From: Branchiostoma floridae
Lineage: Eukaryota > Chordata > Leptocardii > Amphioxiformes > Branchiostomatidae
Length of the DNA: 64,000 nucleotides
Assembly: GCF_000003815.2 (NCBI RefSeq)
Contig: NC_049979.1
Coordinates: 10,634,471-10,698,470 of the forward strand
Reading direction: 5' to 3'
The notes beneath the pieces are model-generated. The model was not told the origin of the DNA and made no database searches. It saw only the letters and a program-made list of their open reading frames with translations. This document shows, in pieces, positions 6,313 to 42,437 of this stretch. A program made the translations under genes and the position numbers. The stretch's first letter is position 1; the number at the start of each line of letters is the position of its first letter.

Positions 6313-9300
6313 CTGGGAACGCTTGCTCCGCAAAAATCCGAGGAGGTCGCCCTGTGGCATGTGCTCCACCACCAGGCAGATAGGACTCCCAGCAGTACAG
6401 CAGGCCAGCAGGCTCACCACGTTGGGATGATAACCAACCCTCTTCATCAGCTGGATCTCTTCTAGGAAGGCCTGAACTTGGCACTCTCCTGCCAACTCTG
6501 CAAGACATGTCCGAGGGTGCAGCACGTCAACATGTGGCTCTAGGGCGGGCTTGTAAGGGTTAATCTCCCCATGTGTTTCCCAATTAGGCGATCTCCTAGC
6601 AACCAAACAGTTCGGGGTAGCATCTTCTGAGGTGCCACAAAATCAGAAAATCATGTCCCAAGTTCCAGAAGGAAGTAGATGGTAGGCTGCATTTTTTGGG
6701 GTTTGCCTGTGCTGGCATTCCTGGATGCCAGACAACTATTTCATCTGCAAATCAAGAGAATGCAACGGCCACATTTATCTAGCCTGGACCTGCTGATCAC
6801 CATCAAAGTACAGACAGATTCTAGTTTGAAATCTACATTTTTGACCTGGCATCCCATGCCGCAGGGCCTGGCAATCAAGAATACGAATTTGTCAATGAGA
6901 ACCAGGGAATTGAGATAGTGTTGCCTAAACTCTTAACTACCTAAAAGGTCATAATATTAAAGTCTTTTGAAAGACATTGCTTAGAAACTTTGCTTTTTCT
7001 TAAATAATAGATTACAAGATATGAAAATCAAAAAGCAAAAAAGGAACAACAGCAAATTTACCTATGATACTAAGGTGGCACTGAGCAAGGTGTGGTTATC
7101 ATTTTTACAAGACTAAATATGTACTGAGCTTCCTCAGATATTGAAAATATGCGTAACTAGTTTGAACAGGCTTCTCCAAAACACAAATGGGATGTTTCTA
7201 TGCAAATTGCTACACATCAAATTTTCTGACATTGTTTTAGCTCTTTTGGATGAAGATGAACTCTGAAAGTGAACTTGAAGAATAGTGGTACAAGGTACAA
7301 AGTATGGCAACATTTTTGTAATACATTTTATCATATGTCCGTTACCATGGAGCATCTTAACAGCCACAGTCACGTTGAAGCTCTTGGCCTTCTCTGTTGC
7401 GATCGGGGAGGAGGCCTTCCTGTGTGTTGGTACACTGCCCATCAGGACTCCTCGCACAACCTTGCCAAAGGCACCTCGTCCAAGTGTCTCGTAAAGCGTG
7501 AGGCGCGAGAAGGGGATTTCCCAGCGATCACACGGGTCTGGTTTTACAACATCCAAGCTGTAAATGCAAATGAAACATAAGAACAATAGTAGTACAACAA
7601 AAATGTGAACATCAACAGTGTACTGTAAAACTCAACTTCACTTACAAGTAATGTAAACTGGACACTTACAATAGTTACAAAGTTGGTAAAAGTTGTTGCT
7701 CGTAGTACCTCAGTATGTATGTTATGTACATGTACAAGTAAAGGAGAATTTTGAGGAGGGAAAAAGGGCTGTAATTCAAATTAGTAGATTGTCTATTGAA
7801 TATCGTACACATATAGTTGATTCATCTGAAGCACTTTTTCAGCTATTTCCAAGTACAGGAAAGCTTCAGGGGTCGGTAAGGTTATCGCTGGGATGCAAGT
7901 CTTGTCAGGTGCCTAAGGGAACAATGGTGGAAAATTTCAGGCATGCCAAAGACACATTTCGAAATGCGCTGGGATTTTAAACTGGTGATAATGGTAACAG
8001 ATACCATGGCACGGGCAGGTGCATGGAAACCACAAGCATGAGGTGGTTGCCATGTCAGGAGAACTGCCATCTGTCCTCACCCATAACGTGCCACTTTAGA
8101 TATTGATGACAATTATATGCTTAAGATTTTTTTATTTGGATGTTTCTTTTTATCAAAAAAAGGATTGAGGTAGTAATGAAAGTCAACTGTTCAATGATTA
8201 TAAATATGTGGTAGAGAAAATGTTACATGTAACATGTGACATGTCACAGGAATGTTGCATAATTGTCACGTGAAGTTGGTGAGTGGAGTATGAAAGGGCA
8301 TTGACCGATAGGGCCTACATTTTCTTAAACACCAATGAGAAAATATGCGCTTCTAATGAACTCTTACAGGAAATGTACCTATTTGATATATCTATTTTGT
8401 GCAAAGCTCATTAAATCTAAATTGTGAAAAGAAATTCTTACGTCAAAATTCTAAACAAAAAACACACAACTTCATCAAGAAAATCTACACACACAATACC
8501 CTTAACTACCTGTAAGAGGCATTCTTCTGCAGCTAGCTTGCAGATACATTTGTAGCTTCTAACAGTAGCACTCCAAACGTAGGACAGTAATCCTGCTATG
8601 TAATGTTCAGTTGACAACATCAACATTCTAATTTATTCAGTTGGACACCTGTTGAACATATAGTTTGAGGAGAGCTACACCTCAAGCCTGTTAAAATATG
8701 CAACACACTGTGAGAAAGACATACATGTACATATTTTGTAACCCACCTATCAGCAGGCTGATGATGACCTGCGATGTAGATGTTCTTCTTCCAAGTCCCC
8801 CCGTCATCATCGACAGTTTTAGTCAGGCTGGAGAACTTGTAGTGGCGATAGTAGCAGTAGGATACAGCCAGCAGGAGGAGCGTGACGGCTACAGAGGCTG
8901 GGATGTAGATATGCAGGGGCAGGGGCCTGGTGTCTGCACTGGGAGGGATGGTTTCACCAACTGGGAGACCTGTTGAAGATGACAGCCAGATCATAACTAC
9001 AACCTGGAGTTATGAAAAACTTACCAACCAACCAACAATAGAGAAGTTGGGATTTACCCAAATACTTGGCTGGCTCCATCATCCTAGTTCATGTAATGGA
9101 CCTAACTTCTTTACTGTTGATTAGGTAAAGTTTACCTTTTTTCATAATGTCATTTACCCACACAGATGAACTTTCATGCAAGTAAAAACGGATAAACTTG
9201 ATGATGAGAAAACGATAAAGCAAAACAATCAAAGTTAATCTGCACATCAAGGAAAGTATCATCTTACCATAGGGCAGAGTGCTCTCCAGTATGGCTGTCC

Positions 9301-12300
9301 TCATCTTGGAAACAGTTACTTTTGTAGTACCATAAACTTGAAGATCCCCTAACATGGAATAGACCAGGAATTTGGATCATCCAGCACACAATAATATCTT
9401 AAGATACAAGGGATAGCATCACTTTTATCATAGATTATCATTAGCATATCTTACAATATAAGATAAACAATGTTATAACAAGGAGTAATTAAGTCACACC
9501 TTAGTAATCAGTTTTATCAATAGGATATCAACACCCTTTGTTCAAAATGAATATCAAATGCACTCGCTGGATTGCGGAGGCTGTATGGATCAGAAAATCT
9601 AATGCTGTAACAGTCATAAACTGACGAGGGGGGATACAAGTTCAGTCAAGTTTGGGACTGCAGTCTACCCAATGCAGTGCTGTAAGGGAAGTAGAACCAG
9701 TCACCTTGCCGTGAGGGAGGTAGCAGAGGGACTACCGAAACTTGGCAGGTAAACTGTAGCACAAAGAACCTTAAAACAGCTACCTGATGACACTATTCAG
9801 TGTCATCAATAGCAATGTTTTCCAAGCCATTGCTTGGCTAAAAGCAAGTTGAAGCTAACTGCTTACCTGTCTCAAAACAGGTGACATGAGCTATGTTGAT
9901 GTTCAGGTCATTCTCTGTATGATAAGGTGTCATGGCAAGCACCTGTTTGATATAAAAAAAGCTGTAATGCAGCAGTCTGCAAAATATCCAAGACCTTTGT
10001 CCAAACAAATATATTTATGACACTGCAATACTCATGACATATGAAATTACAATGTCTTTAGAAACTAAGGTACATAAAGGTAAAGCTGGTCATACTCAAT
10101 GGCACATGATTCAAAGCTATCAGTGCAATGCAGCTTTGCTATATGACACAGGTTTATCATAGCCAACCACATTGGGCAATCCTTTCTCTTCTGGATAAGT
10201 GTGTTGGGTTCTCTAACCACTGAGGCTCTCACAAACACAGGGCCGTGTCCTTACATCATCCCCTGAAATGATGAGAAACTTACCTGCACTCCATAGCGGC
10301 TATTTGGTCTGAGGTCACTCAGCAGGTAGTGTTGTAGGTTCTGAGAAATAGCAAGGATGAATTTTTTTTTCATTGGTTTAGAAATACCACGGTATGGGAA
10401 ATATTCATTGTAAATTCAGTTTGCTGTACTAAAAATTTTGTGGTATGGTGAAATCAAGAGTTTGTCATCTCTTTGTGTTTGCAGATGAACCAACAGTAAA
10501 TCAATTTACCTTAAGACAGACTATGCAGTGTGATGGCTTTGTAGTTGGATTGTAATGGCATTGTAGATGTAAATGTACAGTAGTGTTTAGTTGTGACTGT
10601 GGAAATAAAAGAAATGATCAAGCAAATGGCTTTCTCACCCCTGGTACTACAGTAGAGTTTGCAGTAGTTTCCTGGATCCAGCTGAGAATACTGACAGTAA
10701 CACACTGTCCCCATCTAACCAGAAAGCTGGTGATTTGGCCTGTCCTGTTGTCAGGCCTGTCCCAGGTGAGGTTAGCAGAGATCCCATGGGGGGTGGAGGT
10801 GACTGAGGCTTGGATGTTCTGCACTGGGCCTGGTGCTGAAGCTGGGGAGGTTGTAAAGACAAACATTCCTTTCACTTCAGACAGTCTTAATTTTCTGGTA
10901 GGGGAATAATGAGGTGTTTGCTGTATCTAATGCTGGCAGTGGGCATGCAGAGTGCATGTTTTCACTGTGTGATGATTTCATTGTGGAGAGTTTGCTGCTA
11001 AAACTTCAAACAGAAATCACTAAATTTACAAATTGAAAGGCTCAGACTTATCAAGCTGATGTTGCATGTAGGTCCTCTCCCTGTGCATGTTCCATCGTCT
11101 GCTGAGTCATTCAATACTTTTTACCCCGTCTCCCAAATAAGATGCAGATCTTGTATGTCATGAAGAAGTGGAAGAAGTTAATCTTTTGTACAGATTGTAT
11201 ACTAGCATAAACACATTGTATGACCCTACTACAACTACAAGTACCACTACAATAAACACACTTCCTAATGGTAAAGTACACTTAATCACTCACCTTCAGG
11301 TATACAGGTGTAATTCTTGATCTGGGAACAATCTGCAGATTTGTAAGTACAGGAAATACACGTCATTTTTCTGTTTTTCTTTCAGTTTTTTTTCTGGTCC
11401 AGAGTGCAAAATAGTAAGCTACAGCTTTTAAAAGGAACATTTGTCAGTTAGCAGGACACCTGCTAACATCAGCTGATGTATGAGAGACGTAATCTCACCG
11501 GTGAGGTCTAACACAATAGAGGTTCCCTTGGCTGGTCCACACGTTGTATAAGGTTGGAGCTGTATGGAAGATAATGATGATGATGACACATTAAGGACAA
11601 TTCTTCTACTGTCAATGTCATCAAAACTACAGTGCATCTGGAGTACTTTCATTTGATATGCAAAAACAGATACAAGAAAAATGAAACTGTCTGGTGAATA
11701 AAGTGAATGGCGCAAATTAAGGGTGTTGTTAAGTTTGATCAGACCTTGAAGTAGATGATACACCCAATTCCACCCTTTGGTACATCCAGTAGAACATGTC
11801 TTTCTTATTCTGAAGAAAAAGAATGAGTTAAAGACTTCCATATCAATATGATCATACAAGCCTTGGCAATACCAAAACCATGAGATTCTGAATTATGATA
11901 TTGTAAAAACAAGACAATCATAGGATTATCAACCAGTAAATTACAAAATGCAGAACTCGAATTGCCTTTGAATGTGCAGTAATACTTACAACTTACTGAA
12001 TGAGTTATCATTTCAAACAAACAGGATCAGAGATGTGTGGTATATTTTACTACCTTATAACCAGAGGCAAAGTGTGTTGAACTTTATGACCTCAGAAGAC
12101 GCCATGAAAAACTTGTTGTGTGTGTTAAAAGATGTATGCACAGGATCTCTCTTGTACATGTTTTCCTTACAAAACTGTACCTAGACAGACAGAAATCATA
12201 TGAAGCACTCACTCTAAGATGGCGTTCATAATTAAAAGGAAAGATCTTGTCTTGACAGTAAGGGGATCTGTCTGCAGAGATGCTGTAGTGTGTGAGCTGC

Positions 12301-15300
12301 CCTGCCTCTCCCCACCCTGCAGAACATGGTCAGGACCAGGTGTAAAAAATCTCATCTAAATTTGTCCGCTGGTACAACCACTATTTGGCATAATGGCACA
12401 GTCACATTTGGCATGTGATTTCGAGGCAGTTTTTATTCAAGTAGGCTATGACAGAAATAACAAAGACAGGAACAGACACGTGCGACATATCTTGTCATGG
12501 TAATGACAGGGCTCCCTTGGAAATCAGTCTGCTGACTGAAGGGACCACCCTATAAGATCAATAAATAAATAAATAAATGGTAGTGATGTCACTTGACCCT
12601 TGCCCTACCCATAGTGCCTTATATATAGGATCCATAAAAATGCGCAATCAGATATTGTGGTGGAAGATCGTAACTTTGTCTATGCCGGGCTTCTCTGACA
12701 GTTAGTTCATCTGTATTGGCAAATGACATTATGGAGGAAACTAACCAACACAGCAAACACACCAAAATAGCTGGAACATATTCAAATTTTAGTCTGAAGA
12801 AACATCAGATCCCTAAAGCTGTTACGCAGTGGTAGATGGGTCCATTCTGTGAAAATGAAAATTTGGTTAAGTCAAAACTATTTTACCAGTGTTGGTTAGT
12901 TAAAGTTTTTTTCTCCATAAGTCAGAAAACTTAACGATCTTCCTCCAAAAGCATACACCTGGAGACTCTTTTCTGCCAGTGCTCACAGAAAACGTGGAGT
13001 GACTGGAACTCACAGGCAGGATGTTCCCACGTGATGTCAGCCTGGAAGCGGGAGCCATCAAACATCACCGTTCCAACAGTCAGGTTGCTGACAGTGCCGT
13101 CTGAGTGTGTGTGTGAGAGAGAGAACAAAGGTGGTTATACACATATCTATACACCTCCACACCGGGAATATTTGGGTCACTAATGGACAACACGGTTGTT
13201 TGGAAATAGACTAAGGAAAGCATTATCACAAGCCATTGCATGGTCCAGGGAGCCCAATGTATGGGGTATGAGTGTATGTAGTATGAAACACAACCCATTC
13301 ATAATCAATCGGTGATGAAATGTTGGTATTTTCCAACATGCAGGTGCACTTTCAGACAGTTACAGTGAGGTTGTACATGTCCACAAAGGGAAAGGAAACA
13401 TCAGACACCAAATATCTAATTACATTGTAACTGCTTGGCCTTATAAAAACTCAAAACTTCACTCTGGAGTTGACAACTACCACCTGTTAATATATGTATA
13501 CCAAACAATATGTACTCTTTTATTTCATTCAAGCAGGTCCCTCTTTTCAACCTCCTTGTTTCATTCACCTATCAAATGGACAAACTCAAATGACATTTTG
13601 AAACTCTGGTCAAGAAACATCATTGGTACATTTTAGTAGTATCAACTGACATTGATTTTTGACTATGACTTCCTTCCTACTCTGGGCTTTTGGAGTTAAT
13701 AGAAAAGCATGGAAAACTTCCATAAACTCGAGGGCCAAAAATAATTGGCCGACAACAGCTCACGCAATGAATAAAGCCTTTTTGCTCAGATGTGAGCCAC
13801 TAGTGGCTCATTACCAAATGCATGTGGCTTTGTAAAAGTATCATCCAAGGGATGAAGGCACATCACAGGGTTGAGGGATATTCAGATATAGTGGCAGTGT
13901 TGTTGTTTCCTGATGAAAGTCTGATTAGATGTACCAGAGGACACACATCTTACCAGTCTCTATATCCCAAGAGTTCTGGAGGACTGCAAAGCAGGTACCT
14001 TGAAAAGGAGACCCTCATACTAGTACAGTAGCCATATGCAAATACTTTGTGATCCTAAGGGTCAAGGGTGACCATAATGCAAAATAAAATAATTACCAAT
14101 ATACACTGGTGGAGAGAGCCTCTGGAGACCACGCCAGCCGACTGCTGCGACCTGAATGCGGTACCTGTTGCATGCTGGGAGCCCCGCAGCTGTGAGAAAT
14201 AATGTCGTAGTCTGGAAAATAATTGGTTTGTTGGTTGTAGTGATTGGTGTGATCATTGATTGTTCACAAGAAAGTCAAGACCATCTAACTCCACATCCAT
14301 AATCTAATTATAACATTTCAAACAAAGTACAAAACCATCATCTATTTATTACATTCCTGGATGTCTAATCTTCACAAACGTATCAAAGTACAAAAGGGTT
14401 GCTGTAAGTTGCGAGAACTGTAAAAGCATTTATTCTTGTGGAGGTTTAACAATTCCCAAGTTATAGTAGTCATAGAAGGGAGACATATTCGCTGTGTCTA
14501 CAATTTGTAGTGGAAAGGTCACAAGAAAAAAAATCTGACAGTTTCAAGATTAACAGTGCCCTCCCACCTACATGTAGAAGAGTTATGTCAGAAATAAAGA
14601 GAGGTGCAGTAGTTTATGTAGCTCATTTAATGCAATAGGTATCCAGCATTTGTCTTTTAAATCTAACCCATTTACAATCATGGCACAGATTTTCCTTCTT
14701 TGAAGGCCAAGGACTTGTCTTTGAAGGCCAAGGACTTGTCGAAATCTGGCAATGTGCATCTGCAAAAAATGCATCTTCACTAACAGTGACGACTTTTAGA
14801 CCTGATAAGAGCAATCAATAGAGTAAAAAGAAGGTAGGAAGAATTTGGACCTGTACCTATGGTACAATCTCCTATGTTACATACAACTATTGTAGTTTTT
14901 GGACAAAGGACTTCAATGTCAAATGGCAAAATGACAGGTCTACAAGTTTTGTCATCCAGGTCTCTTAAGAATAAGACCAATAACCCACATCAACATTCAT
15001 CCTCTGGGCTACATGCATCTACAACTTTGAAAAATTGTGTGCTGGCAAGATTTCTATCACAGCCCACACAGGTATGCACAGTTTAGATATACTCGAGTGC
15101 ATATACCATACTGGGGAACATTGCCATGCATATACTGGGTCTAACGTTAATAATTCCCTGCAAACTATGACTTTCCACTCAGTATCTGAATTCATGTTTA
15201 TATTCCAATTCAGCATCAGTCTTTTAAATATGAGGATCAACAGATCATATTGAAAGACTAAGCTGAAGAAAGTTTACTAAGATGAACTTTATGGAAACCA

Positions 15301-18300
15301 ACAGATCAACATTGGTGTGGCCTTAGTGCACCCATCCTTTGGTTAGGAAGTCTGACAAGTTTTCACTTTCCACAACCACATGTTCCTCATGTCACAGAAA
15401 ACCAAATGTAGTCTGCAGGGGTGAAAGGACAGGTTTACAGTTTTCTTTTCCCAACACATCCAATTAAATAGGGTCAGAAGGAGCCCAGCAGAGTGAACTG
15501 AAGTGAATAACTCATGAATCACAGTGTAGCATAGCATTTCTCTGGCAACAGTAGCTGGTGATCAGTACCAGGTTTTCATGCTAGTGCAGTTGTTCACATC
15601 CTTCAGTCTAAAGAAATGCAACTGCCACCTATCAAATGGGCCGAATTATTGTAGAATGGCTGTTGTAAATTTGACGTACTTCTGTAACATTCCAAGAACA
15701 GCTTTGCCTGATTACTTAAAATCCCTCGGTGAAGCTACGGTACATTGGCATCTTCGCTGTGTCCTAGATTGGATTTGTGTTACCCTTGACTTAACAATGG
15801 GAATATGCGTGTATCGAACAAAACAAACATTCAAGTATAACTAGAAAGACAACAAAACACACAAAGCATTTTTGTTGATGAAATTTGTTGAGCGCTCTGT
15901 CAAATCGCTCAGACACAGCCATGACACCAACATACAGCAGCTTCAGTGACATACTTAAGAAAGGGCTTGGAGAAATTTGAAGGCCAAAAGATTTAGGATT
16001 CTAAGTGATTTTATCAATACACCTCTATCACCATCAAGAGGATTACTTTCAATCAAGTAGGCATCAATCTCTATATAGATATAATGTATATCATATACTA
16101 TTCGCCTCTTGTGTTTCACATGGCTGCTTTAAGCTCACAAGAATATCAAGCAAGACCAGATCATTCTGGGAAAACAGAGAACAACTGGAATGTCTCAGGC
16201 TTCCCTATGAAAAACTGTTATTATATTACATACGAGTAGAAGAAATATGTCATGCCAATCCAAGTGTGTCACATAAGATTTGTCTGCACTGTTGCCTTGG
16301 AAAGCTCACAGTCCAACTTGACTTACTGGAGGAAGCTGCCTTTCAGCAAAACCTGTCATTCAGAATGTTGAGTGACTTGAGTCAATGGGAAAAAATGTGG
16401 GTAAGAACTAGTCTCAGTGAAATTTAGCAAAAAAGGGAGAAAAATATCATGCTAATGAATTGTTCCAATGTTCCGTTATGCTCCTTGGAAGATTTTCACA
16501 AAAATGCCCCTGCAGTTCCAGAGCAGAGAAATGGTAAAAAAGCCTAAAATAAAGCAAGGTGGAGGGAGCTACACTTCTAGTAATGTTTCAAAACATGCAC
16601 ATTGTTGTTGTCTTGTAGTTGTCTAAACATGAAACAAAGAAATTGTCTAAACATGATTTACATAAGATTGGTATTTGCATACAATCCTTTTGAGTTAGTG
16701 ACTTTGACTTGTACAACTGGTTTTCCCTGATTTCTTCTACCAGTTCTCAGTGATTTTTATAATTTGCAGTAGGCAATTCACAAGTTTATAGAGACAATGA
16801 CAGTGTAAATGCAGGTTATTTCATGCAAAATAACCTGGGGAAAACATCATAAATTTGAATTTATCCAGTTAAAGGTCTGTTCAAAATTGGTGGAGAAGGG
16901 GTGCGTACTTTATTTGAGTTTTTCCATTTTACCTTTCAGTCCCAAAGATCTGTCTAAGACTTGTCCAAAATCAGGAGTGCGTACTTTAATTGGGGTGCGT
17001 ACTTTATTCGAGAATATACGGTAGTCTCAGTGAAATTTAGCAAAAAAGGGAGAAAAATATCATGGAAATGAATTGTTCCAATGTTCCGTTATGCTCCTTG
17101 GAAGATTTTCACAAAAATGCCCCTGCAGTTCCAGAGCAAGCTGCTACTGGGCCCAAACAAACATACATTACTTCTTCCTTACATCACAAGCTATCTGCCA
17201 CCAAACAGGCCATAGCATGTTTATGTCAGGTTCTTGATTTATGCTGACCACAAATATGCAGAAACACAAACAAACAGACAGACACAAAGATATACCAAAA
17301 GCTATACCTCCATCTTTCATGGAGGTAATAATGATTTGCCAAGGGACTTTGGCCAACATTGGGTAGCATTTGCCTGTGGTTCGAAGGGAAAATGTTACCT
17401 CACTGCTGGCTCACTATCCTGGTAACAAATTACCTATCGTTGCCAAATTTTACTATTAACTATCCATAACCCCTTAGGAATGCCTGGTGGAGGCAAGGAG
17501 ACAACTTCAGCGGCAGATTGCTTGTGGCACCGAGGTGGTTTGAATGAAGAGTTGCCATTACTTCTAGCACAACAGAGCCCTGGGTGGTAGGGAAGGGTCA
17601 CACACCCCTGTTGCAGGGGCCACCTCTGCAGGTGCGTAGCTCAATAACCCAAAAATTCCCCTTGGGCATAGCTCGCCACTAATTTGACAGTACACAACCC
17701 ACTGATTGCAAACAATTTTCAGGACTGTCACACTGGCAGTTGTTACAAGGAAACCTCAGCAGGGATTTGCTGCCAGCACAACTCACTTCTGGAAGCTGAC
17801 CAAGAATATGCTTGGTTTTAATTTATAGGAAAGAGTCGAACGTGCAATCAGGGCCTATTTCATTTCAGTTCACATACCAGGGTAGCGTATAGCTTAATCA
17901 TTGTACCTTTCATTAACAGTCATAAATTAGTAGCCAGGTGGGAGCATGCTTTCAAAAGGAAGCTGTTTAACAAACCGCTAAATTGCTGTAAATCTTCCTC
18001 CTTGGAGACAGCCTATTTGTGAGAGGAAGATGTGACGCACTATGCATGTCATAAAAACATGTGACTCAAACTTGAAACATTTTAACACAAAAGATTGGAT
18101 GTTTGTGAGATTTTCTTTGACAAAGGAATGACAAATACGTCGATGATCACAGTGAATACCACATGGTGGTAGTCTCATTACGTTATCCATGATGTATGTT
18201 AATTGACTTGTTGCTAAATGAGTTTACACCTTTTGTGTGTTTCCTGGTAAATGTAGTCTTAGCCTACCACAAACTGTATCTTATTCTGATAACCACATCA

Positions 18301-21300
18301 CTGTAAAAAGTAATGTGTCTAAAAAAATCTGTCAGATTTCCCATGATTTGGAAAAAGCTCCAGTTGCCTGTGAATGACATTCTCCACATTGCCAGTGGAA
18401 TCCTCTCCTTTGCTTTATAAAGAGGTGGGTATCTTTCCCAGACAACTGAAGGAAATGAAGCGGAATGATGGAACTTAAACACATGTTGTTGGAGAGATTC
18501 AAAATGTGTGTCCTGTGCCCAAACATCAGCGATCCATTTCCTTACTGTACAGACTCTCCCAGTCCCGATGTGCTCATAATCTCTAAGCAGATGTGAGGAT
18601 TTATCTCATTCTCAGCATTTATGTCTGCTTTTGAAACTTCCTGGGAGGAGAAGAACCTTTAAAGATATAATTTAAGAGCACTAGGTGTACAATACATGAT
18701 AGAACCTCCTTAGTACTTGTAATGTACATGTACTAAAAAGTAGGTGTTGTACACTTTCAACACACTTGCATATCCTTACGTCTGCTTTGAGATAGGTGCT
18801 CCTAATGTAATGTACTTGAACTATACATGTATGTATGGAACCTCCTTGGTACTTGTGGAGATAAGTGCTCACAATGTAATGTACTCCTTCTAACATCCAG
18901 GCAAGTTGCTTTTCAATGCTCAAGGACATCTTCAGATGAGACTTAATTTCACTTAGATGTGCTCTGTCTGTCTCACCGGTAAATCATGACGGAAAAGAGC
19001 AACAACTCAGGCAGCTCACTGCTAAGAACATCACAAAGGACCACTAGATCCACCCTACTGAAGTAAGGCTGGAAATTGGTTTTCCTCTTCTCTCCATCCA
19101 ACCACAACAGGATAATTGCTCCTCAGACATCCCCTCCTCACAAATAGACCTATTACTTGTAATTACCGGGTCATCTGAAAAGCAGGCATTTCCATGCCGT
19201 CCAGTTTGTCTGGTAAGGCACGGCCTTTCCTTCTTGTTTCACCTGGGATGAACGAGGACAATAAGTTGTGATGAGTTTACTTCAGCCGCAAAGCTCGTGC
19301 AATATTTCCGCCTTGTTGGCTTTTGTTCTTTATAGCTCTTTTGACAACAGAATGTTGAAGACGGTTCAAATAGAGCTTACTTTCTTCATGCATCACTTCT
19401 CATGTCACATCCCTCATGTTGTGGGTCAGAGGGCAAAAACTCAATATCACAAGATTGGTTTGTGTCAAGGAGATTCTTTTGGGTTAGCCAAATCTTGGAT
19501 TGAGACTCCAAGCAGACGCACATTGTATGGCTCTGGCTCATTCTGCATTTCTTTTTACCACATCCTTTTACTTTTAGCCTTATATGAATACAGATATGCA
19601 ACATGCCACAAAAGACATGCAAAAAGTTAGTTGGAACCAAACATTCCTAGATAAGGAAAACTTCAGCTACATATTTATCTCAGAGCATGTTATTTTTAAT
19701 GACCCTTTGCTGCTTTTCCACCCATTCTAGCAAATACAGAAAACCATACTGTGAATTGCTTTATGATCTTCTGTGGTGCCCGATGGTCAAGCAGTTAGAC
19801 TAAGGAATAGAGGGAACAAGGTATTCAGGAATTGGGAGGGAAAATGAGGCATTCACGGTTAAGTTAGTATTTTGAATGCAAGACAGATCACATATTCACA
19901 GCGATGCGATGAATTCGTAATGAGAGCTCACCGCAAAAACCACAACATTAAACAGGTGCAAATATTGTACAGTAATAAGACACAAAGAGATGAAGAGATG
20001 TTAGATTGGCTATTCAGCTGTGACACCCTTACGTGACCTCTCTAATAAGCACTTCTTATTTCTGACATATTGGTCAATACAGCGCACTCTAATTACCATC
20101 CCATGCCATCAAAAGGTGGAAACAAGTGAAAGGAACCCCCGCTGTTCTTCTCTGCACACCTGTGTCTCACCTGGCGGGAACAAGTCCCTATTGTCTCAAC
20201 AATCATACATATTGCTAATTAGATTGGACAGATGTAAAGCTGCCTGTGATAAATACAGTCTAACATCACATTACATTCAGTAGATGGTCAAAGGTGGGAT
20301 ATTGTGATATCTTTCACCAAGAAGGTTACAGTTTGGTAGTGTTTGTGGTTTTCACTATGGGAGAGGGTAACCTCCAATGACAATTTGATGATTAGTGCAG
20401 CATTTATACTTGAAAGGATGTGAATGCTTTTACAAAGACTTTTTTCTCTTACTGAGATTCACATTTGTGGAAGGATTGACAGATTAACAGGACTGCTGAC
20501 TGTCGACTTTTCCACTCAAACTGGGAAGGACCCATGCTCTTTTCGATAAGTGTGGTGGGTTCTTTAACATGCTCGAGGTGTGGCTCTCCATAAACACGAG
20601 ACCTTCATTTAACATCATATCTAAGGGATGGCCCAAAATGAAGCTAGGCACTCATTTCATAACAGCAGTTATGAGGTTTTTGATGTTTGAGTTGAAGTGC
20701 AGCCATTTTGGATGGATAGGTTGGAAGTGTGCAAGGGAGTGAATCACAAATTGAGAAGCACAAATCAGAATCAATCCCATGCCTGGGTCAATTCAGATTT
20801 GCAAATCCTGGCATGAAAAGGCTCTCGGAGACCTTATCTGGTTGTTTGACTTATGTTGTACAACTGATGCAATCACATTATACAACATAAATCAAAAACT
20901 GGATATGGTCTATGTCCAACCCAATAAGTGTAAACACCCTACACTGCTACACATGTTACATGTAGTCCATCCTTGCAGCTCAGAGACCTAACAAAGTTAA
21001 GGGCTTCTTCTACATTGCTTAATACATAACTATAGCTCTATATCAAGGCCGTCTCCAACTTGAAATGTCTTTTCTGTCCCACTCATTGTTTGGGAGCCCA
21101 TGTTGTTGATTTTCCTGGTTAAATATGTCATTTCAAGCTTATGACAGTACATTTTCAACAGTTATTTTGTTATTTTGGGGATGGATAGCAAATTTCCGTC
21201 CCAGGATGGCAAGTCGGGTCCTGGAGACAGCACTGCTTTATATAAAACTTCATAACAGACTTTTATTGAGGGTAAAGGGAGATGAGCTTACCTGATTGAT

Positions 21301-24300
21301 CTGGTACCACTCTCCATCACCCTCCTGTACAAAGACCACATACACAGTGGATGAACGGACAGATGGGTCCATCCCAGCATCTTCAGCAGACCAGGACACA
21401 AGAACAGAGTCTGATGTACTGCGATGGGCTGTCACCACAAAACTGGGGTCTTCTGGAACTGGAATGTAGAGACAAATCCAAGCTCATGCCACACCTTGTC
21501 CAATGATTTGTTGGTTCTTAGAACTAAGACACAAATCCAGATAGTAGAACTGGAAAATTGATGTGAAAACACTGTCTGAGGGCAAAGTCTGCAACTTAGT
21601 ACAAACAGGTAGTCTATGGGGAGTGAATGCAGTCATTTTTAAGTATTCTTCTAAGCCCACTGTTTTCATATACCTTCTTCTTGCTAGAATTCAACATAAA
21701 ATGTCTAAGGGAAAAATAGTTACGGCCTTGTCTGAAAGTGTCATTTGTAACAATATACATTATAGGGGTCATTATCATTTGTTTGAAGAACCACTGAAGA
21801 AGCAATGTCTTCAGCTTCCAAAGCAAGTGCTGTGTTGACCTTCTAGTAATTGGTCCTAAGCACTAACAGCACCACCTGTCAGTAGTCTACAGAACTACAC
21901 AGAACCATATGTCCAACTGCGTCAACTTTTTACTACGGTATAGTCTATTCTCGCAGCTCAAGGACCGCCCCAAGAATTGCATTACTGTGGCTTACTATGG
22001 TTAACAATGTAAGTCATGTATAACGTACATGTACATCTGCATCTGCTGAAACCGTCTCACATGTGTCATACAGTTCTGTCCCTGTGAGACTTAGTGCTCC
22101 AGTAGACAAGGGGGTGGAGAAGGAATTGAACACCCCTTCTTCACCATAAAAAGTCATGTGCAGGTCAGGCAAACAGGTAAATGCCTGTCTGCCTGCTCAT
22201 CTGTCGAATCGACAGGAGAACCATAACATGTAGAATGAAGAAATAAGACTTACCAGTACCATTTCCAACTGGAAAGCACTGCAGATCCCCTGAACAGTTT
22301 GACACAACCTAAAGAAAAGAAGCGAAATGTGGTCACAGGCAAACAAATCAGCTGAATATCTGAGGTATCATCAAGATGGTCGGAGGTGGAGTTACCTGGG
22401 AAGACTGCTAGCTGCCATTTTGTCATTTTGTGTAAATAGTCATTCAAGGCCTGTAAACTCATCATAGTCCTGTAGCCTCCGTTAAAGAAACTCCTGCTGA
22501 AAACTACTGAGTAAGCAAGACTGGCAAAACAAGTCTGCGTGTTGGTTCAATAAAGTTTCTAAACGGGAAACATGCGGCTACAGCATCATTACTAAAGATG
22601 TGGCACAAGTGTGTAGGGCTGACTTAAGGTTGTTTACTCCCATTTAATACCCTTCTGATTTCCGATAAGGTACCATTTTTATTAAGTTTTTCTTTACCAA
22701 GGTATATGATAAGAAAAAAATGTAATAAGAAAACAGCAGGAGTCTGTAATGGAAGCTCTTGTCCTAAAACTGCAGACCACATTAAAGAGTTACTCTTCCT
22801 ATAAGTTACATAGTATTACACAAATACAGCAGATGGTCTTTGAAAGCAAATTGGTAGATTGTGATGATGAAAGTGACACACTTTTTTGTCCTGCATACAG
22901 ACAGGACAGAACCAGCCTGATTTGTACTTCATCCTTCCCACACCTTTCAGTGTATAGGGGTAGTGCACATCTCCATTTCTACAATACTTTGGCCACAACA
23001 CACTACACCCTAGGCCATTTCACCTGTCATTGTATTATTGTATATGCCCACTCTTTATAAACATGATGTCATCAGTCCGTCACACCATCACAACAAGGCA
23101 GAGTTTACAAGGCACTGTAAACTTGCCTTAATTGCTGTGTAACCACAGCCTATGTCTGGGGCAGCTTGAAATGATGGGTGCTCTCCCACAGGACATTCTG
23201 CTTACACCAACACACTTCCCCCTTCCTGACCACTTCTTAGTCAGAATTGGTCAACGTATACAGAGACATCAATTCCAGTGATGGAGATAGGGGACTGCTT
23301 ATATACATGCTAAAAGTCTCTGGTATTTTGTTTTGTACCACTTCCATACACAGGAAGTTCCAAGATCTATATCATACATCTCATTCTGGAATTGAAACTT
23401 TCTGACCAACTATTTATCAATCAATGTCTTTTTTATACAATGGAATTTGGTTTGTTTATTTGACAAACATTTTATAGTATAATCTAATGACGAATATGTT
23501 GCTGTAAGCAGTCTGGAAAAAAAGTGACTGTAAACATTTTATACATAGTTTATTTACCAGTAGGCAGTAGCTTATCTAAGTTCAGATGGAGTTTTTTTCA
23601 GCAATGCTCTTCATGTCAAAGAGTCATCTAACGTTACAGAGACAACTCTAAGGGCCTCACACTTGTAACATGTTTGTAAGCAACTGACCACCCAGACATT
23701 GCCAGACTTCCACCGTCATGTTATGACCAGTAGACTTGTGGCTAGAAGCAAGGAAGTCGGATGGTGTTTTCACATGGATATTATTGTTTTCCACATATGC
23801 GATAACGGTCAGTCTCTGGAAATTAATTTCCTGGCCATTTCCAAAGTTTTTTGTGGACCACACAACGGTAACACACAGTAGACAATGGGCAAACAGATCT
23901 GATGACAGTGGTCTGAGCGAGTCGCCAGTCACATCCTGCTGACCTAGACATTGCAAAATAATCTCCAAGCAGATGTTGGGAGGTAAAATCAGTAATTTTG
24001 TTTTCCTACCTGCCCGTTTCTGTCACAAGCTGCTGGTAGGGGAGCAATTTGTAACAAAAACAGGAAAGCTAGGAAAACGTAATGATTTTGCCCCTACCAT
24101 CTGCTTGGAAATTGTTGAGAGGGCACAGTCCGCACAAAAACTTCTACCTGGTGAACTTTGCCAACATTGCTGAACTATGCCGGACACAATCCTGGTTATT
24201 TTCAGCTTTGCTTTGTTAGTAGGTCCCCCAACAGTCTGGGACTTATGATACATTTGTATATAGTGGCATGATGATTAGGGTTGTTGAATCTAAAGGTTCA

Positions 24301-27300
24301 AATCCAAGCAGGTTCCAATGTTGTACCCTTGAGAATAGGACGCAAACTAGCGGCAAAGCCTCAGCTCTTTGTTTGAGGAGACACTTTTATCACTAACAGT
24401 AGGCATCCTTCCCCATTAGACTGGACCAAACTTCTCAGTCTAGTTACATTCAGCTTTAACATATATGTACATGTACAAAACCAGTGCACTACTCTATAAG
24501 GTAACAAGATATCTAAGGTCTCAAACAGTTCTTCTCGGCCAACCAACGCCTCTGGTGTGTTTTCTGTCCATTTGGCCAATTTCTACTATTTTTCCAGCGG
24601 CCTGGGGAGACTGGTAGAGGCTAAACCAGATACACAAACAAAAATCATCTCATCTATATACATTCATCCAGATTTTGTGAGAAGAAATATCAAACTAGAT
24701 ATGAATCCAGCAAAGGATGTCATTAAGGGTAACACTTACAAACTGACATCTTAAAAGGGTTAACATTTACGGAGAGTAAATGTACTTGATACTTAATATT
24801 AGGCATGAAAGCTGTAGACAAACTTACACAGTCATCTGTAGCCAATGTGACGTCATCACAGTCAGCAGGGCAGTTCACGGGCTGAAAGGGAATGAGGAAA
24901 AAATTCACAAAAATAGTAGTATAAAAAAAATGTTTTTATGTAAACAAACTAATATTATTGAAACTCTATCACACAATGTGCAGAACTTAGAAAAATGCAC
25001 GAGTATCATTAGCAAACATGATGTAATGACGTAAGATTGCTGCTTTAATGTGTGATTTTACGTCATTAAAATAATATCAGATGTTTCAAATAAAGGCACA
25101 CTATCTTAATATCAGGTAACATTAACTCTTGTTGTGATGCATCACTAAACAGTTCTTTGCATCCTAAGTATTTTATGTATCTAATGTTATTAGGCTGTGA
25201 AATGGAAGAAAAATTTCTCTCCCTGTCTCATATTTCAGGAACTAATTCCTCAACGATCTAGAATTTACTACAACATACACTGCATTAGACTTTACAAAGA
25301 GATATCTTAATCCTGAGGATTACATGCAGGAATGCAAGTATGGTTCCCACACCTGGCTCTCTTTTAAATCAAACCCCCTTTTGGCTACAAATATCAAGTT
25401 CTTTGTGTCTGTGTCACTAAACTCAGAATGAACAGATCTGGGCTTTTGAGTTTGGTTCATGCTGTCCTGAGCATTCAAGTGACTCTCCTGTCTATTCCTG
25501 TTCTTTTGGGGACAATGCACCTTCCAATGTCCTAATGTACATTTTATTTGAGTGACAATTTTCTTTCCATTTTCTGAGTTAAATTTGATCGTTTTGAACG
25601 AGGTACATGAAGGGGAATCAAGGGGGTACGTGCCATGTCCTACATGTAGTACCAAATCTGACAGCAGGTGCTCTGCTGATCTGGGGGTCTTGCACCCTTA
25701 GTCGTTTCTTTTCAGGTGAAGACAGGTCAGACAGTACTAGTGATGCTGACGTTGCAACTTATGTGGCTGACACTGCGGCCCAGCCAAGGAACAACAATGG
25801 TGAATGATGCCTGAAATCACTGAGACAACAGGCATCCCTGGAGAAATGACAGGCCAGCTTGACTCTGAACAGGTAGTGTTGCAGCAACAGGTGCCTAAAT
25901 GCTAGTGGATGAGAGGACACAGCAAGCAAAGGATCCTCAACCTAACTCTGCTGAGGTGTCCAACAGTGACTGTGAGGATGACAACAGACCAGGACCATGC
26001 CACTCTACCAAACCCCCTCTCCCCTGACAGTTACAGTTCTATGTTAATGTAGGGTAGACTGAATGATGATGGGCTTACTGATGGAAATGTGAACAGCAAA
26101 TGATATAAATGAGGTGAAAATTTCCCCTTGCTTACTTCCTTGCATACTTGTCAACTGTGCAGTCCTGTACTGTACTTCTGTCAATATCACATACCTCTTT
26201 TCAAGGATTGGCCATTGGGGTCAAGGGAACAAACGACCTTGAGACAAAGGTGCAGACGGGCACTTAGGAAAAACATTCTGTGCCCGATAGAATTTCGGAT
26301 TTATCGGTATGAGGTTTTACACCAAACATTTCTAATGAATCATTGCAAGAAAATTAAGTTTGCCTCTCTTTACTGCAGGAAACTGCTGATAACAGTTTAT
26401 GACAGTGAAATAATAACTGGTTCTGTCCTCTAGTGATTCTTAACATGACAAAAGCCTTGGTTCCGAGAGTAAATGGAATTCTCAAGTAAGGATGACCAAC
26501 ACAAAGGTTTCTTGCAACAGCTTGTGCTGAGGCACATTGCAGGCAACTTTCCACATGTTTCTGAACAAACATCAAGGAAGTTTTAAAGAGAAAGACAAAT
26601 AAGAAAGAGTTGTAATGGACACAATGCCCTCCTTGTCTACAATGCTTTTAATCATTTCATAAAAGAAGTATAAAAGAGGTCCCTTTGCCCATTCTTGCCG
26701 AACAAATGTTCATTATTTCTGTTAATCCTGCTAAAAAGGAATCTGATAACATTGTCCTTACTCAAGTACGAATGTAGTGTACTTGAAAAAACACCAGCTA
26801 TCACGACTTCACTTGTTCACTGAGGATTCCAACACCAAAAGCCAGCCAACAGGGAGCCACTACATTTGTTCAGTACCTCTCATAGAAGTCCAGGGACATA
26901 AAGGCCCCATGACACTGATGAATGGTAGGTATGTTCTCAGAAATGTTGGTTGTGCATTTTCAACATTATATCAAGCTCCCAATGGTTGCTTGGTGCTAAA
27001 AGACTCTTCATCCTCAAGGACAGAGGGCAGGGTTTTTTTTTCATCAAAGAAAAGTCTTAAATTCTCTGTCACTATGAGAAGGGAAGTTACATCATGGGCG
27101 GGAAATAATGTTCACCATGGTTGTCATGAATGTGAAGAAAGGGCAGCAAGGTTTGCGGTCTACACCCTAAGAATGGCTTTAGCACTGGTTCCCCTTTACG
27201 GCCTCCATTGTCAAACAACAGGGCTCACATAGGCAGCAACTCTTTTGGTTTTGCTGGTCAAAACACATAAAACTCATATAAAGAACATTTTGTTTGGTCA

Positions 27301-27807
27301 GAATCATAAAATTGGGTCTTTTTTCTAAAACAACCTTCTTGGACTAACGGGTCAACTTAATGGGTTGGGTGTTGAATTTAATTTTTCACAAATCACTTTT
27401 TTATGAATAAAAAGTCTGTTTTTCTACATGTACATGTACATACATCATTATACAAAGCAGCCAATCAAATACTATCATCAGTTTGCACTTATATCTTGTT
27501 CATAGTTACCCTCATTTTTAATTGAATCACAAGGTGAAAGTAGACATATGTACATAAATCTTTGATGAATCAATTACAGTACAAAGTAAAAAGCTTCCAG
27601 GTACAGGTGAGGTTCTCAATAGGTGGGAAGCACTTGTACTGGGAAAAGGCTCACCTGTGGCAGTTCTGTCTCACAAAGAGTTCTGCACTGTGCCTTGCAG
27701 ACTGCCCTTCCCAGCACCGACAGGGGCACACAGTCCACCATCGTCCATCCCAGCATCCCGGCAACCGCAACAAGCAAGCAAAACTTCTCACTACTGAGCA
27801 CCACCAT
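6313..27807 (-). CDS. Receptor tyrosine kinase, anosmin-like ectodomain (5' sixteen exons)
   Basis: Exons (minus order): 27807-27655, 24881-24828, 22308-22254, 21458-21292, 14211-14097, 13100-12957, 12316-12213, 11559-11499, 11332-11294, 10841-10639, 10340-10284, 9942-9867, 9348-9268, 8969-8747, 7557-7346, 6497-6313. All junctions are GT-AG and all phases agree, giving 643 residues. Domains: signal peptide about 1-25; Cys-rich segment 26-87; FN3-like domains about 90-180, 183-285 and 300-410; several N-glycosylation sequons; membrane span about 456-477 followed by YRHYK; kinase N-lobe from about 530 with glycine loop GRGAFGKV (537-544), beta3 Lys578 (VAVKML), alphaC Glu595, and hinge VVEHMPQGDLL. 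The Cys-rich plus FN3 order and text recall anosmin-1. The kinase lobe resembles the FGFR/VEGFR/RET-like group. It should act at the plasma membrane in ligand-dependent phosphotyrosine signalling. The catalytic loop, DFG and C-lobe are not in the window, so the gene either continues beyond position 1 or is truncated. The start ATG at 27807 is chosen because a hydrophobic signal sequence follows it directly. Confidence 0.85.
10185..10275 (-). repeat. SINE 3'-region fragment
   Basis: This short stretch (GGATAAGTGTGTTGGGTTCT...) matches 20525-20640 and the reverse complement of the tail of the tRNA-like SINE at 32772-33040. It sits in the intron between kinase-receptor exons 11 and 10. Confidence 0.55.
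12559..12578. repeat. (AAAT)n microsatellite
   Basis: Five consecutive AATA-type tetranucleotide units lie in the intron between kinase-receptor exons 7 and 8. Confidence 0.9.
13101..13124 (-). promoter_or_regulatory. Acceptor of RTK exon 6 built from a (CT)n(CA)n microsatellite
   Basis: Read on the minus strand, the polypyrimidine tract just before exon 6 is a CT run followed by a CA run ending in CAG. The tract is therefore a simple repeat whose length may vary between alleles. Confidence 0.6.
14699..14740. repeat. Perfect 21 bp tandem duplication
   Basis: Two identical adjacent copies of a 21 bp unit that begins TTTGAAGGCC. It is intronic. Confidence 0.95.
16410..16525 (+). repeat. 116 bp direct repeat, copy 1
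   Basis: Nearly identical (about two mismatches) to 17023-17138, running from AGTCTCAGTGAAATTTAGC to CCAGAGCA. It is the head of an interspersed repeat family that is also present, diverged and inverted, at 829-1135. Confidence 0.9.
17023..17335 (+). repeat. 116 bp direct repeat copy 2, with the rest of the element
   Basis: The first 116 bp duplicate 16410-16525. The element then continues through an ACAAACAGACAGACAC run and ends near a short palindrome (TCCATCTTTCATGGA) typical of a non-autonomous element tail. Just upstream (about 16900-17022) are repeated GTGCGTACTTTA motifs, suggesting that another element was inserted between the two copies. Confidence 0.65.
18700..18886. repeat. Imperfect local duplication
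   Basis: GAACCTCCTT(A/G)GTACTTG occurs near 18703 and again near 18838. A second motif (GAGATA(G/A)GTGCTC...TAATGTACT) occurs near 18789 and 18859. Together they form an interleaved degenerate tandem array in an intron. Confidence 0.7.
20525..20640 (-). repeat. SINE 3'-region fragment
   Basis: Contains TTCGATAAGTGTGGTGGGTT and downstream text matching, in reverse orientation, the tail of the SINE at 32772-33040. Confidence 0.6.
24262..24350 (+). repeat. tRNA-derived SINE head fragment
   Basis: GATTAGGGTTGTTGAATC followed by AGGTTCAAATCC (a good pol III B box) and GGTTCCAATGTTGTACC parallels the head of the element at 32772. It lies in the intron between receptor exons 2 and 3. Confidence 0.5.
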
Positions 27808-39373: not shown

Positions 39374-40439
39374 TCACTCTGCCATCTCATCGTCGCCCTC
39401 TGCACTACCGGTGCCCTCGGTACCATTCTCTACTGCCGGAACATCGGCAGACTGGACAGGTACAACCTTCTCGGCAGGTGCCGCCTCGATGGCCATCCTC
39501 GGTGCCTGGATACTCAGCACTCCGTCCTTGGATAGCACGGACGTCACGGTGGCGGGGTCCACCCCCTCGGGCAGCACAAACTCCCTCCTCAGCTCCTGAT
39601 AGCGGAAGCTGTGGCCGGTCTGGTCGGCGTGGCGCGCTTCGTGCTTGCCCTGGACTCGGACTTTGTTGCCGACCGTTTTGACGCTGATCTCGTCAGGAGA
39701 GAACCCTGTCACGTCGAGCGACACCTCGTACTTCTCGGGCGGAGTGGCTTCGTTCTTCTTTTCCTTCTTTCCTTCGTCGGCCGTCTTCTCAGCGTCCTTG
39801 TTCTGCTGTGTCGGTGGCCGACATGGGCATTGTGAAGGGCTGAGGAGCTGGTTGAGGAAGAGCAGTCCATCTTGGAGGGCGGCGTCCATCTGGTGTTCCA
39901 TGACGGAGAGTGGGACGTCTGCGAGTAGGAGAAAAATGCATCGTCAGTATTAGAAAGCATAACGTTACATAGCATTTTGATACATTACAACAGTTTAAGG
40001 AGAATAAACTTTGAATACAAAAACGATGTAACGTAAGATAATACAAAATGTTATATTACTCGCAAGTAATAATAGTAAGGGCATTTAATGCCTTCGCTAC
40101 AGTCACAGTCTTCTCAAACCGTTTCGTATGCACAGTTTTATATCAGGCTAGGGATACAGGGATGTGTCTGACACAGAGAAATCAATTCGGCAAGTCATAA
40201 CTCTGTCGCGCTACGGGCTTACACTGTATTAATTAGCGTGAACGCACAGCACTTGTATTAAACTGCTTAAAACGTCGACTTTTTAGGCTGCAAAAAACGT
40301 ACTACTACTAGCTACAAAACGGATATTTTGTAGAAAGAACGTCATAGGACTTACCATGAGCCAGTCCCGGGAAGCCGCGAGGCCGCACGACTCGGCAGCA
40401 GTGCCTGCTCGGGTGGAACGGGGAGAACACGAGAGCCAT
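39374..40439 (-). CDS. Small heat-shock protein A (alpha-crystallin family)
   Basis: Two exons: 40439-40355 and 39918-39374, phase-1 GT-AG intron, 209 residues. sHSPs are ATP-independent holdase chaperones that form oligomers in the cytosol and bind unfolding proteins under stress. Visible parts: a short N-terminal arm (MALVFSPFHPSRHC, then RPRGFPGLAH), a charged linker rich in Lys and Glu, the alpha-crystallin domain at about residues 91-169 (from KYEVSLDVTGF to DGVLSIQAPR, with the conserved REFVLPEGVDP), a C-terminal VPV motif of I-x-I type at 181-183, and an acidic flexible tail (GDDEMAE). It is transcribed divergently from gene B; start codons are 632 bp apart. In the linker it has TADEGKKEKKN where B and D have TVDEGKKETKN, so it groups with C. 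Confidence 0.95.
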
Positions 40440-41071
40440 TCTGTCTGCTGTCGGCTGGGTCGTCTTTGTCGCTGGAAAGTTGATGCTGATATTTCCGTGG
40501 ATTGGAAGAGTCTGATGAACCCAGCAGTGTCACCCAGTTTTTATATTACAACAAGGAACGAGCTAGGTGGTTCCTGAATTTTCTAATATGTCGCAGTTGG
40601 TGAGTAATGTAATATAACGTTACATACCCTTAAGGGGTTACAGCGCGAATGTTTCAATGACTTGCAGTCATTCTTGTTCCTAGCAGACGACGCGAATGTT
40701 CTAGGGTGACCCAGAAAACCTTTGTCTCTGACCAATCATAGACGTGATCACAAACACTCCGACAAACAACAATAATGGCACACGCTATCTGATTGGTTTA
40801 CAATTTCGCGCAGGCGCTTTGACCCCTTGTAGCAAACCCGGAAGTCACTGGAAGCTTCCAGATGTTTCGAGCATTTTCTCGACCAAAAACTGTATTTTTA
40901 GACTCTGATCACCGACTACATCATATTAGAAAATTCAGGAACCACCTAGCTCATTCCCTGTTGTGGTATAAAAATGGGTGACACTGGTGGGTTCATCAGA
41001 CTCTTCCGATCCACGGAAATATCAGCATCAACTTCCCAGCGACAAAGACGACCCAACCGACAGCAGACAGA
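40440..41071. promoter_or_regulatory. Bidirectional heat-shock promoter of sHSP A/B
   Basis: The two ends are inverted copies of one another, each containing a TATA box (40538-40545 for A on minus, 40967-40974 for B on plus) and a three-unit heat-shock element (40570-40584, gTTCctGAAttTTCt; 40928-40942, its mirror). A central run of 5 bp units at 40850-40884 alternates GAA/TTC-type blocks (GAA, TTC, GAt, TTC, GcA, TTC, GAc). A further GAAtgTTC core is at 40693-40702. CCAAT occurs at 40732-40736 and, inverted, at 40792-40796. This layout predicts joint HSF-driven induction of both genes. Confidence 0.85.
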
Positions 41072-42121
41072 ATGGCTCTCGTGTTCTCCCCGTTTCACCC
41101 GAGCAGGCACTGCAGCCGAGCCGTTCGGCCTCGCGGCTTCCCGGGACTGGCTCATGGTAAGTCCTGTGACGTTCTTTCTACAGAATATCTGTTTTCTGGC
41201 TAATGCGTTTTTGAGGCCTAAATCGACCTTAATTTCGGACCGATCAAATTGCTGTGCGTTGTCGCTAATGACAGCATTAACCCACATCAGAATGTCAGAC
41301 GCATTCCTGAATCCCTAGATATAGGACAGTATACGTACAAGAAACTGAGAAAATACTGTATTTATAACAAATATTATATGTTGTTGTTTGCATAGTTTGC
41401 ATAGTTTTTGTATTCATAGTTTAGTAGTCTCCTAAAATATTATTTGATAAAGGGTGCTACTTACACAATAAAATTATTTTCCTGTTGTAAATTGTGGATG
41501 TCACAAACATATAGCAAACCGTATATGATTTGGATCCCGGAGCATGTTAACTGACGATGCGTTTTTGTTCTCACAGACGTTCCACTCTCCGTCATGGAAC
41601 ACCAGATGGACGCCGCTCTCCAAGATGGACTGCTCTTCCTCAACCAGCTCCTCAGCCCTTCACAGTGCCCATGTCGGCCACCGACACAGCAGAACAAGGA
41701 CGCTGAGAAGACGGTCGATGAAGGAAAGAAGGAAACGAAGAACGAAGCAACTCCGCCCGAGAAGTACGAGGTGTCGCTCGACGTGACAGGATTCTCCCCT
41801 GACGAGATCAGCGTCAAAACGGTCGGCAACAAAGTCCGAGTCCAGGGCAAGCACGAAGCGCGCCACGCCGACCAGACCGGCCATAGCTTCCGCTATCAGG
41901 AGCTGAGGAGGGAGTTTGTGCTGCCCGAGGGGGTGGACCCCGCCACCGTGACGTCCATGCTGTCCAAGGACGGAGTGCTGAGTATCCAGGCACCGAGGAT
42001 GGCCATCGAGGCGGCGCCTGCCGAGAAGGTTGTACCTGTCCAGTCTGCAGAGGTGCCGGCAGTAGAGAATGGTACCGAGGACACTGGTAGTGCAGAGGGC
42101 GATGATGAGATGGCACAGTGA
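41072..42121 (+). CDS. Small heat-shock protein B (alpha-crystallin family)
   Basis: Two exons: 41072-41156 and 41577-42121, phase-1 intron, 209 residues. Domain plan as in gene A: 34-residue N-terminal arm plus helix-like MEHQMDAALQDGL, charged linker, alpha-crystallin domain about 91-169 with DGVLSIQAP, VPV motif, acidic tail. Start chosen at the first ATG downstream of the TATA box at 40967 because it gives the arm shared by all copies. It ends in Ala-Gln where A, C and D end in Ala-Glu, and has SMLSKDG where the others have SVLSKDG. The linker groups it with D, as expected if D is its duplicate. Confidence 0.95.
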
Positions 42122-42431
42122 GACAATGCGTCGTTCTGAAATTGTAGGACTCTGAAGCACCACGGCTTCCATATTTAGTCGCTAATATTCTATAATATTT
42201 ATCAACGTACAACATCGATGTTTACTAAAAATGGGTACATGTATCAATTTGATTATATCATGTTATTCAGTAAAACTATATTATACATGCCATAATAGCG
42301 GCGTCTTTAAATGAAATGTAATGCAGGACATTGCAAGACGCGAATTGTCATTTGCTGCAGAAATTTAGAGGGACGTTTCCCTGTGCTAACGGTGGACAAA
42401 TATATCTTATGTATTAGAAGTATGGATGCGG

Positions 42432-42437
42432 AATAAA
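42432..42437 (+). other. Poly(A) signal of sHSP B
   Basis: AATAAA about 310 bp past the stop in the same context as the signals of A and D. Confidence 0.75.

Follow-up and report, generated by a model that had tools for sequence, protein, structure and literature searches.

A predicted lancelet receptor tyrosine kinase gene with an anosmin-like ectodomain

Analysis of a 64,000-nucleotide stretch of the Branchiostoma floridae genome (the window; contig C1:10,634,471-10,698,470) revealed a predicted receptor tyrosine kinase gene whose ectodomain quite likely descends from an anosmin gene and was combined with a membrane span and a kinase, as judged from sequence comparison. Anosmin-1, a matrix protein, is affected in Kallmann syndrome. 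Ectodomain and kinase are encoded by a single open exon chain with coherent phase. The gene lies on the minus strand, as do all exons described for it below, and 13 of its exons (E1 to E13) fall within the window, between the start codon at 27807 and a splice donor at 6313. All 12 introns among these exons are GT-AG and coherent in phase, and the predicted 587 residues contain no stop. The encoded domains are, in order, a signal peptide, a cysteine-rich segment (E1-E3), three FN3 domains (FN3-1, FN3-2 and FN3-3), a membrane span and the N-lobe of a kinase; with the exons beyond the window the full predicted protein has about 870 residues. An earlier note on this stretch had proposed an anosmin-like ectodomain on a receptor kinase, a proposal that gains support from aligning the receptor with this genome's own anosmin gene and from intron places common to both genes. 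Genome-wide searches covered the 513-Mb genome in its 431 contigs.

The true anosmin gene of this genome was located with human anosmin as the query on contig C12 near 8.31 Mb. The amphioxus and human proteins share 60% identity from the end of the Cys box through the WAP domain, after which the FN3 exons follow. Pfam revealed the WAP domain and four fn3 stretches in the amphioxus protein assembled from the WAP exon onward (557 residues), and this part was used in the comparisons. The first anosmin exon was found at C12 ~8,358,100 (minus strand), about 45 kb upstream of the WAP exon; it encodes MPRIGTG...FVRARCASKCLSLH with a signal peptide and RARCASKCLSLH, and has a phase 0 donor. Cys-box exons between this exon and the WAP exon were looked for and not found. 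A search of the whole genome with Pfam Cys_box gave four sub-threshold matches, one of them the first anosmin exon; another was rejected as a thyroglobulin-type repeat, and the two remaining ones because no anosmin-like exon lies at either locus. Anosmin is a secreted protein, for which a glycosylphosphatidylinositol (GPI) site has been predicted in C. elegans (PMC3580776). Downstream of the last FN3 of the amphioxus gene, a candidate exon at C12 ~8,302,019-8,302,185 (minus strand) contains the hydrophobic run SLRLCWLTVLLCSFTIVALTTTGFS, which may be a signal for a GPI anchor like the one reported for C. elegans KAL-1.

Alignment of the receptor ectodomain with amphioxus anosmin by BLASTP gave 58.9 bits, using an earlier variant of FN3-2, and was collinear from the cysteine-rich segment to FN3-3. 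In hhalign, a profile of human and amphioxus anosmin matched query residues 11-337 to columns 74-486 with a score of 76.5 and a probability of 96.5%, a score reached by none of 60 control profiles of random FN3 quartets, which were built without a cysteine-rich part (maximum 48.3, median 28.0). The whole ectodomain scored 166 against amphioxus anosmin. This value was reached by 10 of 1000 decoys combining the real WAP exon with random FN3s, and by 4 of 1000 combining a shuffled WAP exon with the real FN3s. The collinear likeness of the cysteine-rich segment and the FN3s to anosmin thus exceeds generic FN3 similarity, while the pieces are weaker singly. What the receptor shares with anosmin-1/KAL-1 is a cysteine-rich head, a putatively WAP-derived segment and successive FN3 domains.

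The cysteine-rich segment is encoded by E1 (27655..27807; start codon, signal peptide and VPLSVLGRAVCKAQCRTLCETELPQ; donor CAG/gtgagc, phase 0), E2 (24828..24881; PVNCPADCDDVTLATDDC; phase 0 to 0) and E3 (22254..22308; VVSNCSGDLQCFPVGNGT, aligned to the core of the anosmin WAP domain; phase 0 to 1). Besides C10 within the signal peptide there are nine further cysteines (C26, C37, C41, C45, C55, C59, C69, C74 and C80). Against the amphioxus anosmin WAP exon the segment scored 71, a value found in none of 3000 shuffles with fixed cysteines, in 1 of 1000 when a longer open frame was used and in 1 of 3000 when the first exon was added. Among 18 WAP exons taken from the genome, that of anosmin also ranked first (71, followed by 54, 51 and 50); these are 18 of the 20 loci cut from the 34 tblastn matches of human anosmin, the two dropped being anosmin FN3 exons. 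In the best alignment, C37 and C41 line up with the CxxxC pair that opens the WAP exon, and C55, C69, C74 and C80 with four of the eight cysteines of the WAP domain. E1 may instead correspond to anosmin exon 1, as both first exons encode a signal peptide and a CxxxC pair (RAxCxxxC) and end in phase 0. Clusters of WAP-domain exons are present elsewhere in the genome, at C3 21.17-21.22 Mb and at C17 18.2 Mb.

Likeness to anosmin extends to phase-0 introns at the same place in FN3-1 and FN3-3 (a slash marks the intron). FN3-1 is encoded by E4 (21292..21458; phase 1 to 0; first part, recognised by Pfam fn3) and E5 (14097..14211; phase 0 to 1; second part, TTTLFL...RYRIQVAAVGWRG), and is interrupted at EWYQINQ/TTTLFL in the receptor and at DWELVEQ/TTSQAT in anosmin. 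A further phase-0 intron precedes the E strand in receptor FN3-3 (VVPG/NLQHYLL), in anosmin FN3-3 (ATTH/NLDFDI) and in anosmin FN3-4 (MLPK/DQFTHL). The 150 listed FN3 matches of the genome, of 1249 candidates, reach profile position 72 or beyond unbroken and so have no mid-domain intron, in a list that itself favours uninterrupted domains. Phase-1 introns at the borders also agree, before FN3-1 and at VYI/DG in the receptor compared with LRK/DP in anosmin, but borders of this kind occur often among modules that have been shuffled.

The following FN3 domains are encoded by E6 (12959..13100; first part of FN3-2), E7 (11543..11608; second part of FN3-2), E8 (10639..10894; end of FN3-2 and first part of FN3-3, recognised by Pfam fn3), E9 (10284..10340; E and F strands of FN3-3; phase 0 to 0) and E10 (9867..9942; last part of FN3-3). 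The assignment of E7 is tentative, with 11608-11499 and 11559-11499 as alternatives between which Pfam does not decide, and E10 was inferred from splice sites and phase. Compared with the anosmin FN3s, the FN3 part scored 113, which 16 of 1000 random quartets reached; these were drawn from a bank of 40 genome FN3 domains, hand-picked for spread from the 150 listed of the 1249 candidates. In a ranking of 48 domains, human anosmin FN3-1 came third and amphioxus anosmin FN3-1 sixth for receptor FN3-1. For FN3-2, amphioxus anosmin FN3-2 came first with the first half and first or second with longer variants, and for FN3-3 human anosmin FN3-4 came first and amphioxus anosmin FN3-3 second. Among the four anosmin FN3s alone, FN3-1 and, narrowly, FN3-2 (E6) match their namesakes best in both species.

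A number of observations weigh against descent from anosmin. One FN3 and the larger part of the Cys box are absent from the receptor. Its cysteine-rich segment is unremarkable against the human Cys box and WAP domain (243 of 3000 shuffles), E1 shows no significant similarity to anosmin exon 1 (472 of 3000), and the match of E2 and E3 to the WAP exon is modest (42 of 3000). The WAP unit is degenerate, with about four of the eight cysteines of a WAP domain aligned. WAP disulphides connect cysteines 1-6, 2-7, 3-5 and 4-8; each of them would lack a partner here, and the fold of the segment must therefore differ from that of WAP. The introns E2/E3, E6/E7, E7/E8 and E9/E10 have no anosmin counterpart and E1/E2 has one only loosely, and the anosmin introns after SYFVQ (FN3-2) and WDLPE (FN3-3) are missing in the receptor. 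For FN3-1, two genome FN3s outrank human anosmin FN3-1 and four outrank the amphioxus one. The native order of the FN3s is not clearly preferred among the 24 permutations (rank 4 with amphioxus and 6 with human anosmin). The second half of FN3-2 depends on a tentative splice choice, and none of its three splice variants was recognised by Pfam. The anosmin change N267K has been found in patients (PMC3580776); the site corresponding to human N267 is N in amphioxus anosmin (AAVNENG) and G in the receptor (AAVGWRG), so that the surface of FN3-1 is changed.

Searches of standard libraries and of the genome point the same way. In Pfam, FN3-1 reached 25 bits, which equals its cut-off, and FN3-3 30.9 bits; neither Cys_box (PF17869) nor WAP was detected in the receptor ectodomain, also with the better gene model, while the human anosmin control gave 143 bits for Cys_box and 41 bits for WAP. 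A phmmer search of the PDB with the ectodomain (5 sequences at an E-value up to 1 with a partial query, 31 at up to 10 with a fuller one) detected titin, PTPRD, DCC and others; anosmin (1zlg) was not among them. BLASTP of the ectodomain against the human anosmin sequence alone reached 33.5 bits. When the whole genome was searched by tblastn with the ectodomain at an E-value up to 10, no exon of the C12 anosmin gene was found; the 18 matches were 10 exons of the receptor's own locus and 8 generic matches of the third FN3. Conversely, no exon of the receptor gene was among the 34 matches of human anosmin in the genome. The profile search that the earlier note had called for bore out two of the FN3 domains, and the anosmin and WAP families were not detected. 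That note had named generic FN3 similarity alone as an outcome speaking against its proposal, and by this measure the result from the standard libraries would have counted against the anosmin relation.

The reading that gains from these results is that of an ordinary lineage-specific receptor kinase with generic FN3s and a short cysteine-rich head, in which the likeness to anosmin would come from the FN3 pattern and a chance spacing of cysteines. It accounts for the generic matches in Pfam and PDB, for genome searches that connect neither gene to the other, for the better partners of FN3-1 elsewhere in the genome, for the unsupportive order test and for cysteine pieces that are weak singly. 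Against it stand the fixed-cysteine shuffles, the first place of the anosmin exon among the WAP exons, the hhalign controls, the score of the FN3 part and the shared mid-domain intron places, and we consider this explanation unlikely. Descent of the ectodomain from anosmin remains our preferred reading, and the relation is probably one of ectodomain homology and not of membership in the anosmin family.

The membrane-proximal and kinase exons follow those of the ectodomain. E11 (8747..8969) encodes the stalk, the membrane span and the juxtamembrane segment, assigned by hydropathy, E12 (7346..7557) the glycine loop and the VAVK lysine of the kinase, and E13 (6313..6497) the kinase from the C-helix to the hinge. 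Signal peptide and membrane span were called by hydropathy and by eye; windows above 1.5 coincide with the signal peptide and with residues 396-421, and four more lie at 550-571, inside the kinase. With its signal peptide, single membrane span and kinase domain with catalytic motifs, the predicted protein has the make-up of a receptor tyrosine kinase. The exon assembly of the earlier note was confirmed. Its bounds coincide with the start codon at 27807 and with the splice donor at 8747 that ends the exon of the membrane span, and the signal peptide, the cysteine-rich segment of three exons and the three FN3-like domains it had described are all part of the 13-exon chain. In-phase fit guided the choice of E7, of E10 and of where E8 starts, so that phase coherence at these places is not fully independent evidence; E7 also has weaker splice sites.

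Two adjacent genes, one for a secreted anosmin-like protein and one for a separate kinase, might have been joined on paper, as the exon chain is known from genomic sequence alone and the C-lobe of the kinase lies beyond a sequence gap. This is very unlikely, however, because E10 and the membrane-span exon lie about 900 bases apart, are compatible in phase (1 to 1) and together keep the frame open, although no search was made for an alternative exon that would close the one gene or open the other. According to the title of one paper on lancelet domain combinations, apparent novelty of lancelet proteins may reflect errors of gene prediction, and proof from transcripts therefore matters for the receptor gene.

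The kinase continues outside the window in four more exons at about C1:10,620,618-10,625,130, some 9-14 kb past the window edge. Three C-lobe exons were detected by tblastn with a generic C-lobe on the 40 kb below the window and contain EFLWQKGFVHRDLAARN, IGDFGLTR, KLPIKWMSPEA and WSFGVVLWE; a fourth exon ends in SFARQIAVGM, and the stop codon was also located. The HRD, DFG and WMSPE motifs are all present. The intron separating the two kinase halves contains a gap of 100 N, so that their join rests on the assembly; joined, they cover positions 1 to 258 of PF07714 with 314 bits. In the PDB search with the full kinase (263 sequences at an E-value up to 1e-60), the top entry among the best 60 was a double EGFR chain, whose two copies sum, and the best single-domain match was RET (271 bits), followed by FGFR3 (263 bits) and other FGFRs. 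With the N-lobe alone, KIT was the best PDB match. The kinase phylogeny suggested in the earlier note was made as a tree of 17 rows, with provisional human rows; it placed the kinase outside the part holding RET, TEK, FGFR1, KIT and KDR, and not with FGFR1, at weak support (77/91). By its sequence the kinase is of a wide RET/FGFR/KIT/VEGFR-like kind, and the comparisons do not single it out as an FGFR. Arrays of tyrosine-kinase genes occur on C7, C8, C12, C1, C18 and other contigs as long single open frames, many of them tandem and of about 900-1000 codons.

Outside the kinase the receptor differs from both RET and the FGFR family. The RET ectodomain has cadherin-like domains, and no cadherin family was found in the receptor by Pfam at an E-value up to 1. 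FGFR ectodomains are built of immunoglobulin (Ig) domains; no Ig family exceeded the Pfam cut-off in the receptor ectodomain, nor did any family besides FN3 and the FN3-like Pur_ac_phosph_N model. The least probable explanation, an FGFR whose Ig domains were exchanged for an anosmin ectodomain so that known partners became fused, draws on the N-lobe and full kinase scoring near FGFR and RET in the PDB, and is opposed by the higher score of RET than of FGFR3 and by the position of the kinase apart from FGFR1 in the weakly supported tree.

Eph, Tie and TAM receptor kinases also carry FN3 domains outside. InsR and Sev likewise combine FN3 domains outside with a tyrosine kinase inside (PMC8662651), and what sets the lancelet receptor apart from FN3-bearing receptor kinases is its anosmin-type head. 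From anosmin-1/KAL-1 it differs in that a membrane span and a kinase follow the ectodomain, in place of the secreted or GPI-anchored, kinase-free form typical of that family.

If the ectodomain does descend from anosmin, it would consist of what remains of the Cys box, a WAP unit in decay, FN3-1 and FN3-2, followed by one more FN3 that corresponds to FN3-3 or FN3-4. In the simplest history, an anosmin gene would have been copied or its exons shuffled, and later losses would have removed one FN3, half of the cysteines of the WAP domain and the greater part of the Cys box. Such an ectodomain may still bind matrix partners, either heparan sulphate or secreted factors; this binding would cluster the receptors, and the clustered kinases would phosphorylate each other and downstream partners. 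The earlier suggestion that a co-ligand module and its signalling partner are placed in one chain is not borne out here: the kinase is not placed with FGFR in the weakly supported tree, its best single-domain PDB match is RET, and the WAP part, which human anosmin needs for FGFR1 binding (PMC3580776), is degenerate. In vertebrates, the anosmin head and FN3-1 assist signalling by growth-factor receptors. A natural fusion in which they allow the receptor itself to sense ligands or heparan sulphate, and which may share the partners of free anosmin, is conceivable if rather doubtful.

Two further features of the window were recorded. Four similar, intronless small heat-shock protein genes lie at 39377-47635, two on each strand, and the one that was tested belongs to the HSP20 family (77 bits). 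An exon of the ependymin family is found at 50021-50353 on the plus strand (Pfam, 55.9 bits).

In the accessible parts of the literature, anosmin, receptor tyrosine kinases and amphioxus were not found treated together, and anosmin and amphioxus only on other subjects. Nor did work turn up there that brings receptor tyrosine kinases together with WAP and fibronectin type III domains under the heading of domain architecture. Two studies of lancelet domain combinations deal with the RYK receptor kinase, and their main text does not mention anosmin.

Anosmin has been proposed to be a co-ligand that acts on growth-factor receptors. If the relation described here is true, an anosmin-derived receptor ectodomain would be independent evolutionary evidence of this module working at a receptor kinase. 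It would also serve as a tool for finding the binding partners of the head and of FN3-1, in an animal whose free anosmin gene has been retained, and would be of interest to the fields of anosmin and of receptor evolution.

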